From the IMG/VR virus record IMGVR_UViG_3300042197_003284, positions 1 through 40,115 of that record: 40,115 nt of DNA; one strand, written 5' to 3'. The notes under the pieces are model-generated. The model had not been told where the DNA came from and did no database searches. It saw only the letters and a program-made list of their open reading frames with translations. The position numbers and the translations under genes were made by a program. Each line of letters starts with the position of its first letter. Position 1 is the first letter of the stretch. Positions 29,140 to 34,908 of the stretch are shown one piece after another. This DNA is from a virus.

Positions 29140-30141
29140 TTATAATATTTTAGAGGCTATCAGACAACCTTTAGAAACAGCGTGTAGAGGATCCGGAGCA
29201 TGAACAACTTCTTTTATCGTTAAAGGAAATTTATTTGTTACAAGCTTTTGACTAAAAATATCAATATATCCACGAGCCTGAGACGTACCACCAGCAACAA
29301 CAATTTTTAATGGATTTTTAAATTTTGGTAATAATTTATGATCTGTTAATGCTAAAGATAAATGTTTAGTAGTATAATCTATTAATCTTTCATAATAAGA
29401 GGATACCGCCGCTAAAACAGGATTTTCATTATGTTCTCCAATCACAAAACCACCATTTTCTTTTTCGGCTTGTACAACACTATCTTTTTCTCCTGTAGCC
29501 ACAGCACTCATGCGGTCGATCCAATCTCCGGATTTGGTTGTGCTAAAGACTACTGTAGGCTCACCATTTAACATTACACATACGTTGGTCATCCCGGCCC
29601 CACAACTTATTCCTATACCAGTGTAATCCTCACCCTCTAATTCAGCATAACACAAAGCTTCTGCTTCATTAATAGAAATTACAGAGTATCCTGATTCTGA
29701 TAAAATAGACTTAACTACATCTTCATGATATCCTATATCAAAATCTTCATCTTCTTGGTCTACTGGTTGTGCTGGAACACAAAACACAAGTTTTTCATTT
29801 GGTTCTTTTGCTTGTCCAGCCACTTCTTTTAATATAAATGCTAAAACTCTTTTAGCATTCTTTTCTTTAGCAGATACGACCCCCTTGCTCATAGGTCTTT
29901 TAGCATTATCATTTCTTTCAATAGCTTTATCGATAGCATCTTGACCTAGTAAAATAAATGAACCGTCTTTATCTTTGATAAAAATTTTACCAGCTAAACC
30001 TTTTTCTATCATCTTAGATGCTACAGGAGTTGTTGGACTAATAGTATAAAATGCATCTCTAAAGTCTTTATAGACTATTTTCCCGTTGTCCTCTTGAGAT
30101 AACACTATAAAACTAGTACCTACATCTAATCCTTTTGCCAT
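29140..30141 (-). CDS. Actin-like ATPase (ParM/MreB/FtsA fold)
   Basis: A 333-residue actin-fold protein. GLDVGTSF (4-11) is phosphate loop 1, GIGISCGAGMTNV (175-187) is phosphate loop 2, and IVVAGGTSQARGYID (280-293) is the adenosine motif. This is the ParM/Alp/FtsA pattern. Phage actins of this kind and the unrelated phage tubulins organise DNA or virions in the cell. It lies next to a small membrane protein with a coiled coil, which may anchor it. Polymer formation cannot be judged from sequence. Confidence 0.88.
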   Translation of the reverse strand: MAKGLDVGTSFIVLSQEDNGKIVYKDFRDAFYTISPTTPVASKMIEKGLAGKIFIKDKDGSFILLGQDAIDKAIERNDNAKRPMSKGVVSAKEKNAKRVLAFILKEVAGQAKEPNEKLVFCVPAQPVDQEDEDFDIGYHEDVVKSILSESGYSVISINEAEALCYAELEGEDYTGIGISCGAGMTNVCVMLNGEPTVVFSTTKSGDWIDRMSAVATGEKDSVVQAEKENGGFVIGEHNENPVLAAVSSYYERLIDYTTKHLSLALTDHKLLPKFKNPLKIVVAGGTSQARGYIDIFSQKLVTNKFPLTIKEVVHAPDPLHAVSKGCLIASKIL

Positions 30142-30570: not shown

Positions 30571-31455
30571 TTAAGATAATACTCGTCCTTTTTGAGTACG
30601 CATAACTAATCCTTTACGTACTAAAAATGGTTCAATGCTATTTTCAATAGTGTCTATAGCAATACCTGTCATAGAAGATATGGCTTTGAGACCTAAAGGA
30701 TTGTTTTTATTTTTCTTAAGTACTTCCATATACATTCTATCATAAGTATCCAGACCATTTTCGTCTATGCCTTGAAGGCTATAAATTTTTGATATAGAAT
30801 CACCATCTCCGTGACAACTAGTATAATTTCTATACCACTGTAATCTGGAATTTAAAATTCTAGGAGTACCCTTGCTTCTTTTGGCTATCTCTAATAGATC
30901 TTCATCATTAATAGTAATAGATAGCTTTTCACAGTTCAACTTTGCTAGTTTAGCTAAATCATCGTCATTATAAAAACACAAGTGTTCTTTAATACTAAAT
31001 CTATCATAAAATGGCTGACTTAGACTTCCTCCACTAGTTGTTGCTCCTACTACAGTAAAAGCTGGTAAATCTATTTGTTCTGGTTTATCTTCAGTAGAAA
31101 TAGTTAACATAAAGTCTTCCATAACCGGATATAAAAATTCTTCTACTAATTTAGGAAGTCTATGAATCTCATCGATAAACAATACTGATCTAGGAGCTAT
31201 ACCTAGCAAATAAGGCATAATATTTTTAACACTACGTATATTTGCGGCATTAGTAGTATATAGGTTGACCCCCAATTCCTTTGCTATAGCACCCGCTATG
31301 GTGGTTTTACCAAGCCCAGGAGGGCCGTCTATTAAAACGTGAGGCATCACCGTATTAGTGTTTTTACAGCCCACCACAGACACTTTGAGTCTGCTTATAA
31401 CATCACTTTGACCAACAATCTCATCAAACGATGTAGGACGAATACCATTAGACAT
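30571..31455 (-). CDS. ruvB: RuvB-like Holliday-junction branch-migration ATPase
   Basis: A 294-residue AAA+ motor from the ATG at 31455, chosen because GGAG lies 8 bases upstream; an ATG at 31470 is less well placed. RPTSFDEIVGQ opens the family domain. GPPGLGKTT (Walker A, Lys50), VLFIDEIHRL (Walker B, Asp95/Glu96), GATTSGG (sensor 1) and PFYDRFS (arginine region) are all present. The C-terminal winged helix (GLKAISSMTGIAIDTIENSI) is the RuvB type. RuvB normally works with RuvA. Here the only neighbour with RuvA similarity is a zinc ribbon joined to RuvA domain III. Confidence 0.93.
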   Translation of the reverse strand: MSNGIRPTSFDEIVGQSDVISRLKVSVVGCKNTNTVMPHVLIDGPPGLGKTTIAGAIAKELGVNLYTTNAANIRSVKNIMPYLLGIAPRSVLFIDEIHRLPKLVEEFLYPVMEDFMLTISTEDKPEQIDLPAFTVVGATTSGGSLSQPFYDRFSIKEHLCFYNDDDLAKLAKLNCEKLSITINDEDLLEIAKRSKGTPRILNSRLQWYRNYTSCHGDGDSISKIYSLQGIDENGLDTYDRMYMEVLKKNKNNPLGLKAISSMTGIAIDTIENSIEPFLVRKGLVMRTQKGRVLS

Positions 31456-31861
31456 TGTTATTATCTCCAAATAATTGTAAAGCCAATTTAATTAAGGAAC
31501 CTGTTTCAGTATTACCGCTTTGTTCAAAAGCTTTTTGTATAAGCTTCTCTGATTCTTTTTTATCAAAACCATACTTTTGTAATATACTTATACATGTTTT
31601 TAGAATATCACTAGACAGCTTTAGTTTTGTATCTGTTTTCTTTGTCGTAGAGTTAGCATACTTAATAAGTAGCTTAGATACTCTTTTAGGAATATAAATA
31701 TTTCCACATTCACATACGACTTTAAAGTTTTTAGTTCTTGCTTCATTTAACAAAAGCCAGTGTTCGATACCACATTCTTCATTCGAACATTTGTATTTAA
31801 AATGAACATCAATATCACATGGCTTAATTTTTCTAATTATCTTTTTTTGTTGATTCATCAT
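31448..31861 (-). CDS. Zinc ribbon + RuvA domain III-like protein (RuvB partner)
   Basis: From the ATG at 31861 the protein is 137 residues. Residues about 22-55 form a zinc ribbon with cysteines at 25, 30, 50 and 52 (KCSNEECGIEHW ... VVCECG). Residues about 85-131 (DILKTCISILQKYGFDKKE ... TGSLIKLALQLF) align with the C-terminal domain of RuvA ('ALxxLGYxxxEAxxxV...SSExLIRxAL'). That domain is the flexible one binding RuvB. The tetramer-forming and DNA-binding RuvA domains I and II are absent. The protein overlaps ruvB by 8 bases. It is a good candidate for an unusual adaptor that brings RuvB to a different DNA or protein target. Confidence 0.7.
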   Translation of the reverse strand: MMNQQKKIIRKIKPCDIDVHFKYKCSNEECGIEHWLLLNEARTKNFKVVCECGNIYIPKRVSKLLIKYANSTTKKTDTKLKLSSDILKTCISILQKYGFDKKESEKLIQKAFEQSGNTETGSLIKLALQLFGDNNNV

Positions 31862-32708: not shown

Positions 32709-33842
32709 TTATCCTATACAAAATTTATCACTAACTTGATTAGCAAGATCTTTAGCAGCACTACTTAGGAAACGATTGCCACTAAAATAGAGTGGGGTAC
32801 TCACTTGATTAAGGAACTCCACGACCGTTTTTAAAAGTTTGGTCTGCTGACCGTCAAGATTTATATCTTCATCTCCAGCATCGCCTGAGAGTGTCTGTAG
32901 AACATCTGTATCATCACTCACAGGCATCACAGGCATGGGATCGCCATAGGCACGTTCAAGACCATTAAGCATCTTAGTCCCATAACTCTTATATTCGTGT
33001 GTATTTTGGAGACTATTCAAGATATCAGTAGCAACATTAGTCGATACTGGAACTCCAGTAATATCACTCTGGTTATAAGCCTTAGCATACCCCTTATACC
33101 ATTCGTCGCTACACTTCTCAGGAATAATCTGTAGAGTAGCAGGCTGGCCGGTTAATGCGCCTTTAAGATCTGCCACATTAACTGGTTGACCAGTAGAACC
33201 GGGAAGCAGGCTAGTGAAATATGGAGCCTTCTTTTCCCACTCCTTACGCCACCAAGTATACGGAACACGATAAATCTGATTAGGTTTGATTGCTCTTGGA
33301 TCACCATCAAAATAGTTAACTAACTTTTTCTGTAACCCATTCCAAAAAGTTTTATTGCTGCCTACAATCTTGCGACTAGCATCGTCAAAAATCCAATAGC
33401 ACTGATAGCCATTACGAGTATCTATTACCCAACTAGGTTTAACAGGAAAACTATTGATCTTTTCCAAGAACTTCTTCTTTTTGGTCATTACAACGCTAGG
33501 CTTAAAATACTTGCCCTCACTATCCCTGCCTGCATCCATATCACAAAAGCAACAAGTAAATTGCTTGATAGCATATAGTTTTCGACCTCCATTTACATAA
33601 AAGTAAACATCAGAATGGTTATTGTCGTTAGCCCGCAAAGCTTCATTTAAATCACCAGTATGGTTCATACTACTAATCTTCTTACGAGGATTACCATTAT
33701 AAACAAAGATATGACTTTGCTTAAAAGAATCTAAAAATTTCTGTCGAAATCTAGACCATGAATTAACGTGCCGTTTTCCAGCATGACTGTTACTCTTATC
33801 AAAAGGATTAAAACCAAGATTATCACTAAAACCGTTACTCAT
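32709..33842 (-). CDS. RepB-like / archaeo-eukaryotic-type primase
   Basis: From the ATG at 33842, preceded by GGTGA at 5 bases, the protein is 377 residues; a GTG at 33851 is an alternative. FTCCFCDMDAGRD (about 95-107) carries the Asp101-x-Asp103 metal motif. SWVIDTRNGYQCYWIF (137-152) is the second motif, with Gln where many have His. LVNYFDGDPRAIKPNQIYRV (174-193) and PYTW complete the RepB_primase/AEP pattern. The family makes primers. The C-terminal part (from about 230) is unlike known primases and may contact a helicase. It sits in an operon with rIIA, rIIB and ruvB. Confidence 0.8.
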   Translation of the reverse strand: MSNGFSDNLGFNPFDKSNSHAGKRHVNSWSRFRQKFLDSFKQSHIFVYNGNPRKKISSMNHTGDLNEALRANDNNHSDVYFYVNGGRKLYAIKQFTCCFCDMDAGRDSEGKYFKPSVVMTKKKKFLEKINSFPVKPSWVIDTRNGYQCYWIFDDASRKIVGSNKTFWNGLQKKLVNYFDGDPRAIKPNQIYRVPYTWWRKEWEKKAPYFTSLLPGSTGQPVNVADLKGALTGQPATLQIIPEKCSDEWYKGYAKAYNQSDITGVPVSTNVATDILNSLQNTHEYKSYGTKMLNGLERAYGDPMPVMPVSDDTDVLQTLSGDAGDEDINLDGQQTKLLKTVVEFLNQVSTPLYFSGNRFLSSAAKDLANQVSDKFCIG

Positions 33843-33881
33843 TATCTTCACCGTTTCCTACTACATCTAAACTTATATTGG

Positions 33882-33900
33882 GATAAGCACCATGCTTATC
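33882..33900. repeat. Perfect inverted repeat in the leader of the primase gene
   Basis: GATAAGCA and TGCTTATC are separated by 3 bases. On RNA this is an 8-bp hairpin about 40 bases upstream of the primase start. There is no following T run, so it is not a terminator. It could be a protein binding site, an RNA-stability element or a processing signal for the RNA directly upstream. Confidence 0.5.
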
Positions 33901-33919
33901 AGAGTCAATATATTGTGTA

Positions 33920-34037
33920 AAAGACGATTAAGGAATCGAACCTTATATTCCAGTCGAGCCGTTACCCAGACACACCATTTAGTGTTGCAGAATCGAACTG
34001 CCGCCTCATTCGGACTTGTCGCCAGACAATCGTCTCC
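33920..34037 (-). ncRNA. tRNA-like RNA with two T-arms in one acceptor stem
   Basis: On the minus strand AGACGAT (34029-34035) pairs perfectly with ATCGTCT (33922-33928), giving a 7-bp acceptor-type stem that two G-U pairs can extend. Directly before the 3' strand is a canonical T-arm: TAAGG, loop TTCGATT, CCTTA (33929-33945). A second T-arm-like hairpin, GCAG, TTCGATT, CTGC, lies at 33987-34001. Each T-arm ends a unit of about 41-42 bases starting GTCTGG, and a small hairpin ACAC-TAAATG-GTGT separates the units. The total length is about 115 bases, beyond any ordinary tRNA. No clear D-arm or anticodon arm fits, and CCA is not encoded. It lies between rIIB and the primase gene in the same transcript. 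Confidence 0.7.
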
Positions 34038-34043
34038 TTATTA

Positions 34044-34061
34044 AAGATCAATACTGATCTT
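34044..34061 (-). other. Hairpin overlapping the rIIB stop codon
   Basis: AAGATCA and TGATCTT form a 7-bp stem with a 4-base loop across the rIIB stop. Only TTTAAT follows, so termination would be weak. It may shield the message end or help separate the tRNA-like RNA, which begins about 7 bases later. Confidence 0.45.
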
Positions 34062-34908
34062 CGTCTTCGTAATCATCTTCTTCTTCATCATCGTCCTCAT
34101 AGAACTGATCCCAATAATCATTGTCATATTCGTCATAAAGACTCTCTTCTTCATCATAGTATTCATCTTCACTAAAGTCGCTCTTATAGAGTGGCTTAAG
34201 AAGTTCACCTTGATATTCTCCAACTACTTCATATCTGCAAGTACGAAGTTTTTCGCAGTTGCAGTCATTGGGAACACTAACAACATCCTTGGGATTAATC
34301 TTAACAATAACAATCTTATCACCGGCCTCGACACTACCATAGCCAGCAACATAATTCAAAGCCCCAGCGTGAAGACCCTGAGAGCAACCAACTCCGCGAT
34401 TATCGTCAACCTTTGCTCGTTTCATTTCACAAACATTACCAACATGATTATCAAATGTACCACGATACTTATCCATATAATCGCTGCGTACTGCCTTATA
34501 TGCTAGAAAGTGACCATCCTCAGTAATCGGCAGATATTGATGCTCAAGAAAATCATATAGTTCTGTCTGGCTCTGCATACTTGGATTGTCCATCAGATTA
34601 TTGAGAAAATTAACAAGCGGCTGGAAAGGCAGACCCTTGCTCATAAACTCAAGAATACGCTTGCTGATAGCACCATGAACTTCTTCGCCATCATAGAACA
34701 CCTTGCCATTCTTAACCTCTACAGCACCATCACTAAATGATGCTACGGCACTTTCAATATCCACCAACTCCAGCAATTCATCTTCCGTAGCAGAACTCAG
34801 CCTTTCCATAATCAGCTTATAATTAAGGTGATCTGGAAGAATCTGATGAGCCTTATTATTAAGGATCAGAGTCAGATTACCGTCAACCCACATAAAAGGA
34901 ACACTCAT
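34048..34908 (-). CDS. rIIB: rIIB-like protein
   Basis: A 286-residue protein matching T4 RIIB in its central part: LYDFLEHQYLPITEDGHFLA, then YKAVRSDYMDKYRGTFDNHV, RGVGCSQGLHAGALNYVAGY and VIVKINPKDVVSVP. The C-terminal 45 residues are very acidic (DDDEEEDDYEDEDQY), an addition to the T4 pattern as I know it. In T4 the rII proteins affect lysis timing and rex-type exclusion; the biochemical role is poorly known. AGGAG lies 7 bases before the ATG. It follows rIIA by 26 bases, and the tRNA-like RNA follows its stop. Confidence 0.88.
   Translation of the reverse strand: MSVPFMWVDGNLTLILNNKAHQILPDHLNYKLIMERLSSATEDELLELVDIESAVASFSDGAVEVKNGKVFYDGEEVHGAISKRILEFMSKGLPFQPLVNFLNNLMDNPSMQSQTELYDFLEHQYLPITEDGHFLAYKAVRSDYMDKYRGTFDNHVGNVCEMKRAKVDDNRGVGCSQGLHAGALNYVAGYGSVEAGDKIVIVKINPKDVVSVPNDCNCEKLRTCRYEVVGEYQGELLKPLYKSDFSEDEYYDEEESLYDEYDNDYWDQFYEDDDEEEDDYEDEDQY

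Follow-up and report, generated by a model that had tools for sequence, protein, structure and literature searches.

In the 40,115-nt stretch of phage DNA analysed here (the window), the gap between an rIIB gene and the gene that follows it encodes an RNA in which one acceptor-like stem encloses two T-arms. What kind of RNA is this, is it found in related phages, and what might it do at the end of rIIB?

A tRNA-like RNA with two T-arms

The minus strand is the coding strand for rIIA, rIIB, the tRNA-like RNA, and the following gene, and all parts of the RNA given below lie on this strand. The rIIB gene (34048..34908, minus; PHROG 609, E 3.6e-71) is immediately upstream of the RNA, which starts 12 nt past the rIIB stop codon and, in its twin-elbow form, spans 114 nt (33922..34035). 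A perfect 7-bp stem adjoining a canonical T-arm, the feature on which the original prediction was built with its strand unstated, is indeed present on the minus strand. Its 5' strand, AGACGAT (34029..34035), pairs with ATCGTCT (33922..33928), this helix covaries among relatives, and two flanking G.U pairs can lengthen it to 33920-34037. The 3' strand is followed by TTTAC and lacks CCA. Stacked on this stem is T-arm 2 (TAAGG-TTCGATT-CCTTA, 33929..33945). T-arm 1 (GCAG-TTCGATT-CTGC, 33987..34001), with the same loop, lies within the same stem at exactly the predicted distance of 41 nt and occupies the tip of a central arm, whose 5' strand AGTCCGAATGAGGC (34003..34016) is paired with GGCTCGACTGGAAT (33947..33960); this arm is weaker in the window than in the relative L059. 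T-arm 1 is conserved in L046, L059, L060, L065, and L183, which with the window make up the twin form (class V, L060 being truncated), and two pairs of its stem are altered on both sides when twin forms are compared. The RNA also contains D-like hairpin 1 (TGTC-TGGC-GACA, 34017..34028), a GG-loop hairpin present in all curated distinct homologues; D-like element 2 (GTCTGGGTAAC, 33961..33971), which in relatives reads GTC-TAGGA-GAC; and an extra hairpin (ACACT-AAAT-GGTGT, 33972..33985) that is present in the window and absent from the other twin members.

The minimum-energy fold of L059 and L046 is a cloverleaf with an 8-bp acceptor, D-hairpin 1, the central arm (AGGTTC/GAATCT, an internal loop, and GAGT/ACTC), and T-arm 2, in which the tip of the central arm carries T-arm 1 and then D-hairpin 2, the reverse of the order in tRNA. 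The same topology, with the extra hairpin and a weaker central arm, is the second-best fold of the window RNA (-30.9 versus -31.0 kcal/mol for the best). Over five sequences, 97.0% of the pairs in the twin fold hold, compared with 35-53% in slid controls, and seven pairs are changed on both sides, although most of these compensatory changes are owed to the window sequence because four of the five sequences are close to each other. Thus, from its sequence the twin form reads as two D-linker-T units with mutually paired linkers, a dumbbell with two potential elbows. The earlier description of a duplicated tRNA 3' half stands as to the duplication, and GTCTGG does open both units as claimed; the repeated unit, however, is a D-hairpin, linker, and T-arm, and most relatives contain a single unit with one T-arm.

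When the whole window was dinucleotide-shuffled 600 times, no shuffle contained even one perfect T-arm with an adjoining 7-bp stem. The raw folding energy of the RNA is unremarkable (z -1.1 to -1.2), and since this single-sequence measure is not significant, comparative evidence is required. In the window, ARAGORN identifies no genes, Rfam gives no matches at the gathering threshold, and the Rfam tRNA model RF00005 gives none at E<=0.1, in agreement with the claim that this is not an ordinary tRNA or tmRNA. A blastn search of the region against named phages also returned no match.

A covarying family in a single slot

A search of IMG/VR with rIIB recovered 80 close relatives, about 78-90% identical, and in most of them a tRNA-like element lies directly past the rIIB stop. 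The curated set from these uncultured-phage relatives contains 41 distinct elements, on which the counts rest (the raw 152 copies include contigs taken twice); it includes 25 different acceptor helices and 18 different T-stems. Common to all is an acceptor-like stem stacked on a T-arm, together with a D-like hairpin having a GG loop. The elements range from about 43 to 114 nt and fall into at least five architectures. Besides the twin form, these are class I (43-54 nt), consisting of the acceptor, an AGC-AATTTGG-GCT hairpin, and the T-arm; class II, with a CCGC-TGG-GCGG hairpin, the linker TACTAGTTA, and the T-arm; class III, in which a D-like hairpin and a variable middle hairpin precede the T-arm; and class IV (about 82 nt), with a long middle arm. 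L298 represents yet another architecture.

The acceptor helices are 89% paired and the T-stems 98%, and exchanging 3' strands between elements lowers these figures to 57% and 71%, respectively; in each case 0 of 5000 swaps did as well, in a control that leaves sequence relatedness in. Stems were scored on curated segments, as MAFFT misaligned the acceptor 5' strands of the mini class. The class II alignment keeps 97.4% of its pairs, against 45-75% in slid controls, and 22 of its cells carry changes in both partners, compared with 7.2 in shuffles. Every one of the 41 curated elements has TTCGATT or TTCGATC as its T-loop; two further relatives have TTCGACT or TTCGACC, and the position that varies here varies in tRNAs too. 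The loop of every curated D-like hairpin contains GG; these hairpins were assigned by curation, the automatic finder being unreliable. GG is a requirement for the contact between D-loop and T-loop in tRNA, a contact that we infer for these RNAs from their sequences. With one mismatch allowed, the acceptor and T stems together form a stack of 12-13 bp in 30 of 41 elements. The 3' tails are pyrimidine-rich, often with a U-run, and none among the curated elements starts with CCA. Compensatory changes across 25 acceptor and 18 T stems, together with the invariant T-loop core, argue for selection on RNA structure, and it is this comparative evidence, rather than folding energy, that establishes the family. 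The conservation and covariation of the stem and T-arms among relatives, which the original prediction had proposed as its check, thus support its suggestion of a new class of phage RNA.

These RNAs have an acceptor stem stacked on a 5-bp T-arm with a TTCRANY loop, as in tRNA, and lack a cloverleaf with an anticodon arm that tRNA models recognise; no family member examined has an anticodon arm. Neither a tag-peptide reading frame nor a tRNA-like domain recognised by ARAGORN or Rfam, as expected for tmRNA, was found in the window or in the relatives scanned, and a tmRNA was rejected. ARAGORN finds nothing at the loci of 16 relatives, and the only matches of relatives to the Rfam 15 families (9 relatives) are far below the gathering score. 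An ordinary tRNA with an intron, the outcome against which the prediction had been staked, was likewise rejected, as RF00005 does not match and intron-free relatives of 43-54 nt exist. The suggested decoy for anticodon nucleases falls with the absence of an anticodon arm.

In 66 distinct regions (a few registers, such as those of L060 and L079, are mis-set), the element lies 5-41 nt past the rIIB stop on the same strand, that is, it is a tRNA-like structure directly flanking an mRNA. IMG/VR-wide pattern scans, which share some contigs, gave 94 stretches for classes I and II; in all 92 that include rIIB the element directly follows that gene in the same orientation, and the remaining two lie at contig ends. 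For classes III and IV, 57 of 79 matches are behind rIIB, and the remainder are mostly ordinary tRNAs and contigs cut near the element, plus L348 and L330. In L348 an HNH homing-endonuclease-like gene lies between rIIB and the tRNA-like element, and L330:2030-2093 is a class III-like element shortly past the stop of a small ORF on an apparently unrelated phage contig. Searched with a covariance model built from class II only, most of 16 phage records give a match at the rIIB 3' site, among them records with elements of classes I, IV, and V (E 3.9e-4 for the window, E 8.9e-8 for class IV), and few other strong matches occur outside tRNA clusters. No element was present behind the distant rIIB genes of seven named phages checked. 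Some close relatives, including marine ones, also lack it and have other hairpins there, partly overlapping promoters, or nothing; in the element-less marine contigs L230, L239, L245, and L257, the post-rIIB hairpin overlaps a TATAAT promoter (GGATTGCGGG..CCCGCAGTCC).

Exchange of the element and neighbouring genes

On an rIIB tree of 46 rows, seven architecture labels require at least 19 changes, where the possible minimum is 6, and the rIIB rows of L054 (class IV) and L046 (class V) do not differ at any compared column. The scatter of architectures on this tree indicates that the element is exchanged like a cassette, and the label changes, together with identical rIIB genes followed by different classes, indicate that its turnover, by replacement or recombination, far outpaces that of its host gene. 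Element and next gene also combine freely, the element being followed either by a leader hairpin and a PrimPol-like gene or by a gene for a small acidic protein, whose start codon can be as near as 15-20 nt. Several relatives have such a gap of 15-20 nt between the element and the start of the next gene, whose Shine-Dalgarno sequence lies in the tail, so that there is no room for a promoter behind the element.

In the window, the downstream gene (32709..33842, minus) has no Pfam match. Its product, tentatively an AEP/PrimPol-like protein, contains the PrimPol-type motifs DMD and GYQCYW and, in a low-confidence model, has a weak Foldseek match to the PrimPol of cyanophage S-2L (E 4e-3). The primase named in the original prediction is therefore plausible, not proven. 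Ahead of this gene lies a second structured RNA, a leader hairpin at 33874..33912 (minus; TATATTG-ACTCT-GATAAG-CATGGTG-CTTATC-C-CAATATA), which has no Rfam match and shows compensatory changes at 12 of 15 pairs in 13 sequences. Farther along, 29140-30141 (minus) has a strong match to the actin-like Pfam family Volactin (E 7e-61), near a clamp-loader-like gene (30571-31470). The terminase is weakly similar to those of Bacillus phage Slash and Microcystis phage MaeS. A Gp23 search for a T4-like phage gave no match, with controls equally silent, and a search of bacterial genome contigs with rIIB for a host gave none.

A possible processing site at the end of the rIIB mRNA

The reading we favour, with a probability of roughly 0.45, is that these RNAs are conserved cis-acting tRNA-like elements, phage "t-elements", that would mark the 3' end of the rIIB mRNA for RNase P-type processing. 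It is favoured because the position of the element is constant (5-41 nt past the end of one gene and on its coding strand) and the next gene sometimes lacks space for a promoter. Among the functions first suggested, a transcript-processing signal is thus the one that the context (the fixed place behind rIIB and a next gene that is often co-transcribed) recommends. Enzymes that gauge the elbow and the 12-bp stack would recognise the fold. The joint transcript of rIIB and the next gene would be cut immediately 5' of the acceptor stem by host RNase P, possibly aided by RNase Z or the CCA-adding enzyme. The rIIB mRNA would thereby acquire a 3' terminus set a few nt past its stop, the downstream message would be uncoupled, and a small stable RNA would be released. 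The two elbows of the twin form (D1-T2 and T1-D2) could bind two copies of an enzyme or bind it more tightly.

Two reports describe the D-loop and the remainder of the tRNA as dispensable in RNase P substrates (PMC4919913; PMC11221534), and the phage M3 and C4 RNAs and the T4 gene 32 mRNA are known substrates (PMC11143913). Counting against a t-element, the family lacks a 3' CCA, which aids cleavage by E. coli RNase P (PMC5723415). The phages' own tRNAs also lack CCA, so a host that matures them handles CCA-less precursors. The absence of the element from some close relatives also counts against a t-element, as does the fast swapping of architectures, which exceeds the needs of a plain processing site. 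Neither the conserved D-like hairpin nor a second elbow is required by RNase P, so something else may be under selection.

Processing alone does not explain why the D-like hairpin is conserved, why there is a second elbow, or why exchange is so rapid, and these points are the reason for retaining a trans-acting tRNA mimic as a rival, tentative as it is. Here a stable RNA, cut from or made with the rIIB mRNA, would block or divert a host factor that recognises the elbow (RNase P, EF-Tu, the CCA-adding enzyme, T-loop modification enzymes, SmpB, or a tRNA-sensing defence), and rIIB would supply the timing. Conservation of elbow features past RNase P requirements, the existence of a twin-elbow version, and the swapping of architectures among phages with near-identical rIIB, as in an arms race, all favour it, as does the link of rII genes to prophage exclusion. 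It is doubtful but conceivable that these RNAs form a new phage tRNA-mimic family reduced to the elbow, including a two-elbow dumbbell with T-then-D order, whose architectures are exchanged in one slot because they inhibit or redirect a host tRNA-handling or tRNA-sensing factor, as counter-defence or takeover in trans. Yet practically every copy lies at an rIIB 3' end, which is unusual for a trans-acting RNA, and the element has no recognisable promoter of its own; a decoy for anticodon nucleases would also need an anticodon.

Less probable still is an unusual intrinsic terminator or 3' stabiliser, in which the 12-bp stacked helix and U-run would end rIIB transcripts and resist 3' exonucleases. 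Although U4-U7 follows the acceptor strand in many members, and the slot in some relatives holds the other hairpins described above, a hairpin with an immediate U-run is not found in all members (12 of 40 tails lack a run of four U), and neither TTCGAT nor the GG loop would be needed. Moreover, transcription must often continue through the element, since in several phages the next gene's ribosome site lies right against it. Another reading, a decayed tRNA or else a recombination or homing site derived from tRNA and maintained as DNA, might account for the cassette-like exchange, the HNH gene of L348, and D-arms like GTCTGGTGACT, which are found in real phage tRNAs; it is largely refuted by the covariation and the invariant T-loop core, sits poorly with a single fixed slot and orientation, and is very improbable. 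All three of these rivals are less supported than the t-element.

Among the closest known RNAs, alongside tRNA punctuation, are the t-elements of plant mitochondria, tRNA-like structures at mRNA ends proposed as RNase P and RNase Z sites that form 5' or 3' ends (PMC4368725). Those are organellar, whereas the putative processing elements described here belong to dsDNA phages, follow one gene, lack an anticodon arm, and are sometimes double-elbowed. The tRNA-like domain of tmRNA similarly combines an acceptor, a T-arm, and a reduced D region without an anticodon arm; in contrast, the phage RNAs have no mRNA-like domain, tag ORF, encoded CCA, or match in Rfam or ARAGORN, and their acceptor lacks a conserved G.U pair of the alanine-marking type. 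As in these phages, plant RNA viruses place tRNA mimics at RNA 3' ends, where they are recognised by RNase P, the CCA enzyme, and elongation factor (PMC5723415), but those structures are genomic 3' ends, often pseudoknotted and aminoacylated, rather than intergenic elements of a DNA phage with a standard T-arm. M3 RNA and the C4 antisense RNA of P1/P7 are non-tRNA phage RNAs that are processed by host RNase P (PMC11143913), as is proposed for the rIIB element. They belong to different genes, and we know of no twin T-arms in either.

A twin-like RNA does occur in the tRNA arrays of Streptomyces phages Wofford and Elmer (L217), with an 8-bp acceptor on a T-arm and an inner second T-arm followed by a TGG-loop hairpin. 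Unlike the twin form, it lies away from rIIB and lacks D-like hairpin 1, and the likeness is one of architecture. In Wofford (NC_048722, about 89148-89248; L171:1456-1556) this unannotated RNA, with a CCGG-TGGC-CCGG hairpin inside, is located between tRNA-Gly and tRNA-Arg. Streptomyces phage Enygma (L219, about 310-390) has an unannotated gene resembling tRNA-Arg(TCT), with its anticodon arm and D arm seemingly in swapped order, the anticodon arm first.

Mimicry of tRNA is already well known in RNA viruses and organelles. In the literature searched (rIIB with tRNA-like structures, phage tRNA-like structures, and decoys), no prior description was found, and there is no Rfam family. As far as found, then, what is new is that DNA phages have, in untranslated regions, a conserved tRNA-mimic family that is supported by covariation, is linked to one gene only, and includes members with two elbows. 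The family provides a natural set of minimal (to about 43-54 nt) and doubled elbow RNAs for probing the requirements of RNase P, the CCA-adding enzyme, and EF-Tu, and a direct starting point for asking what shapes rII expression and why the element is swapped at such a rate.
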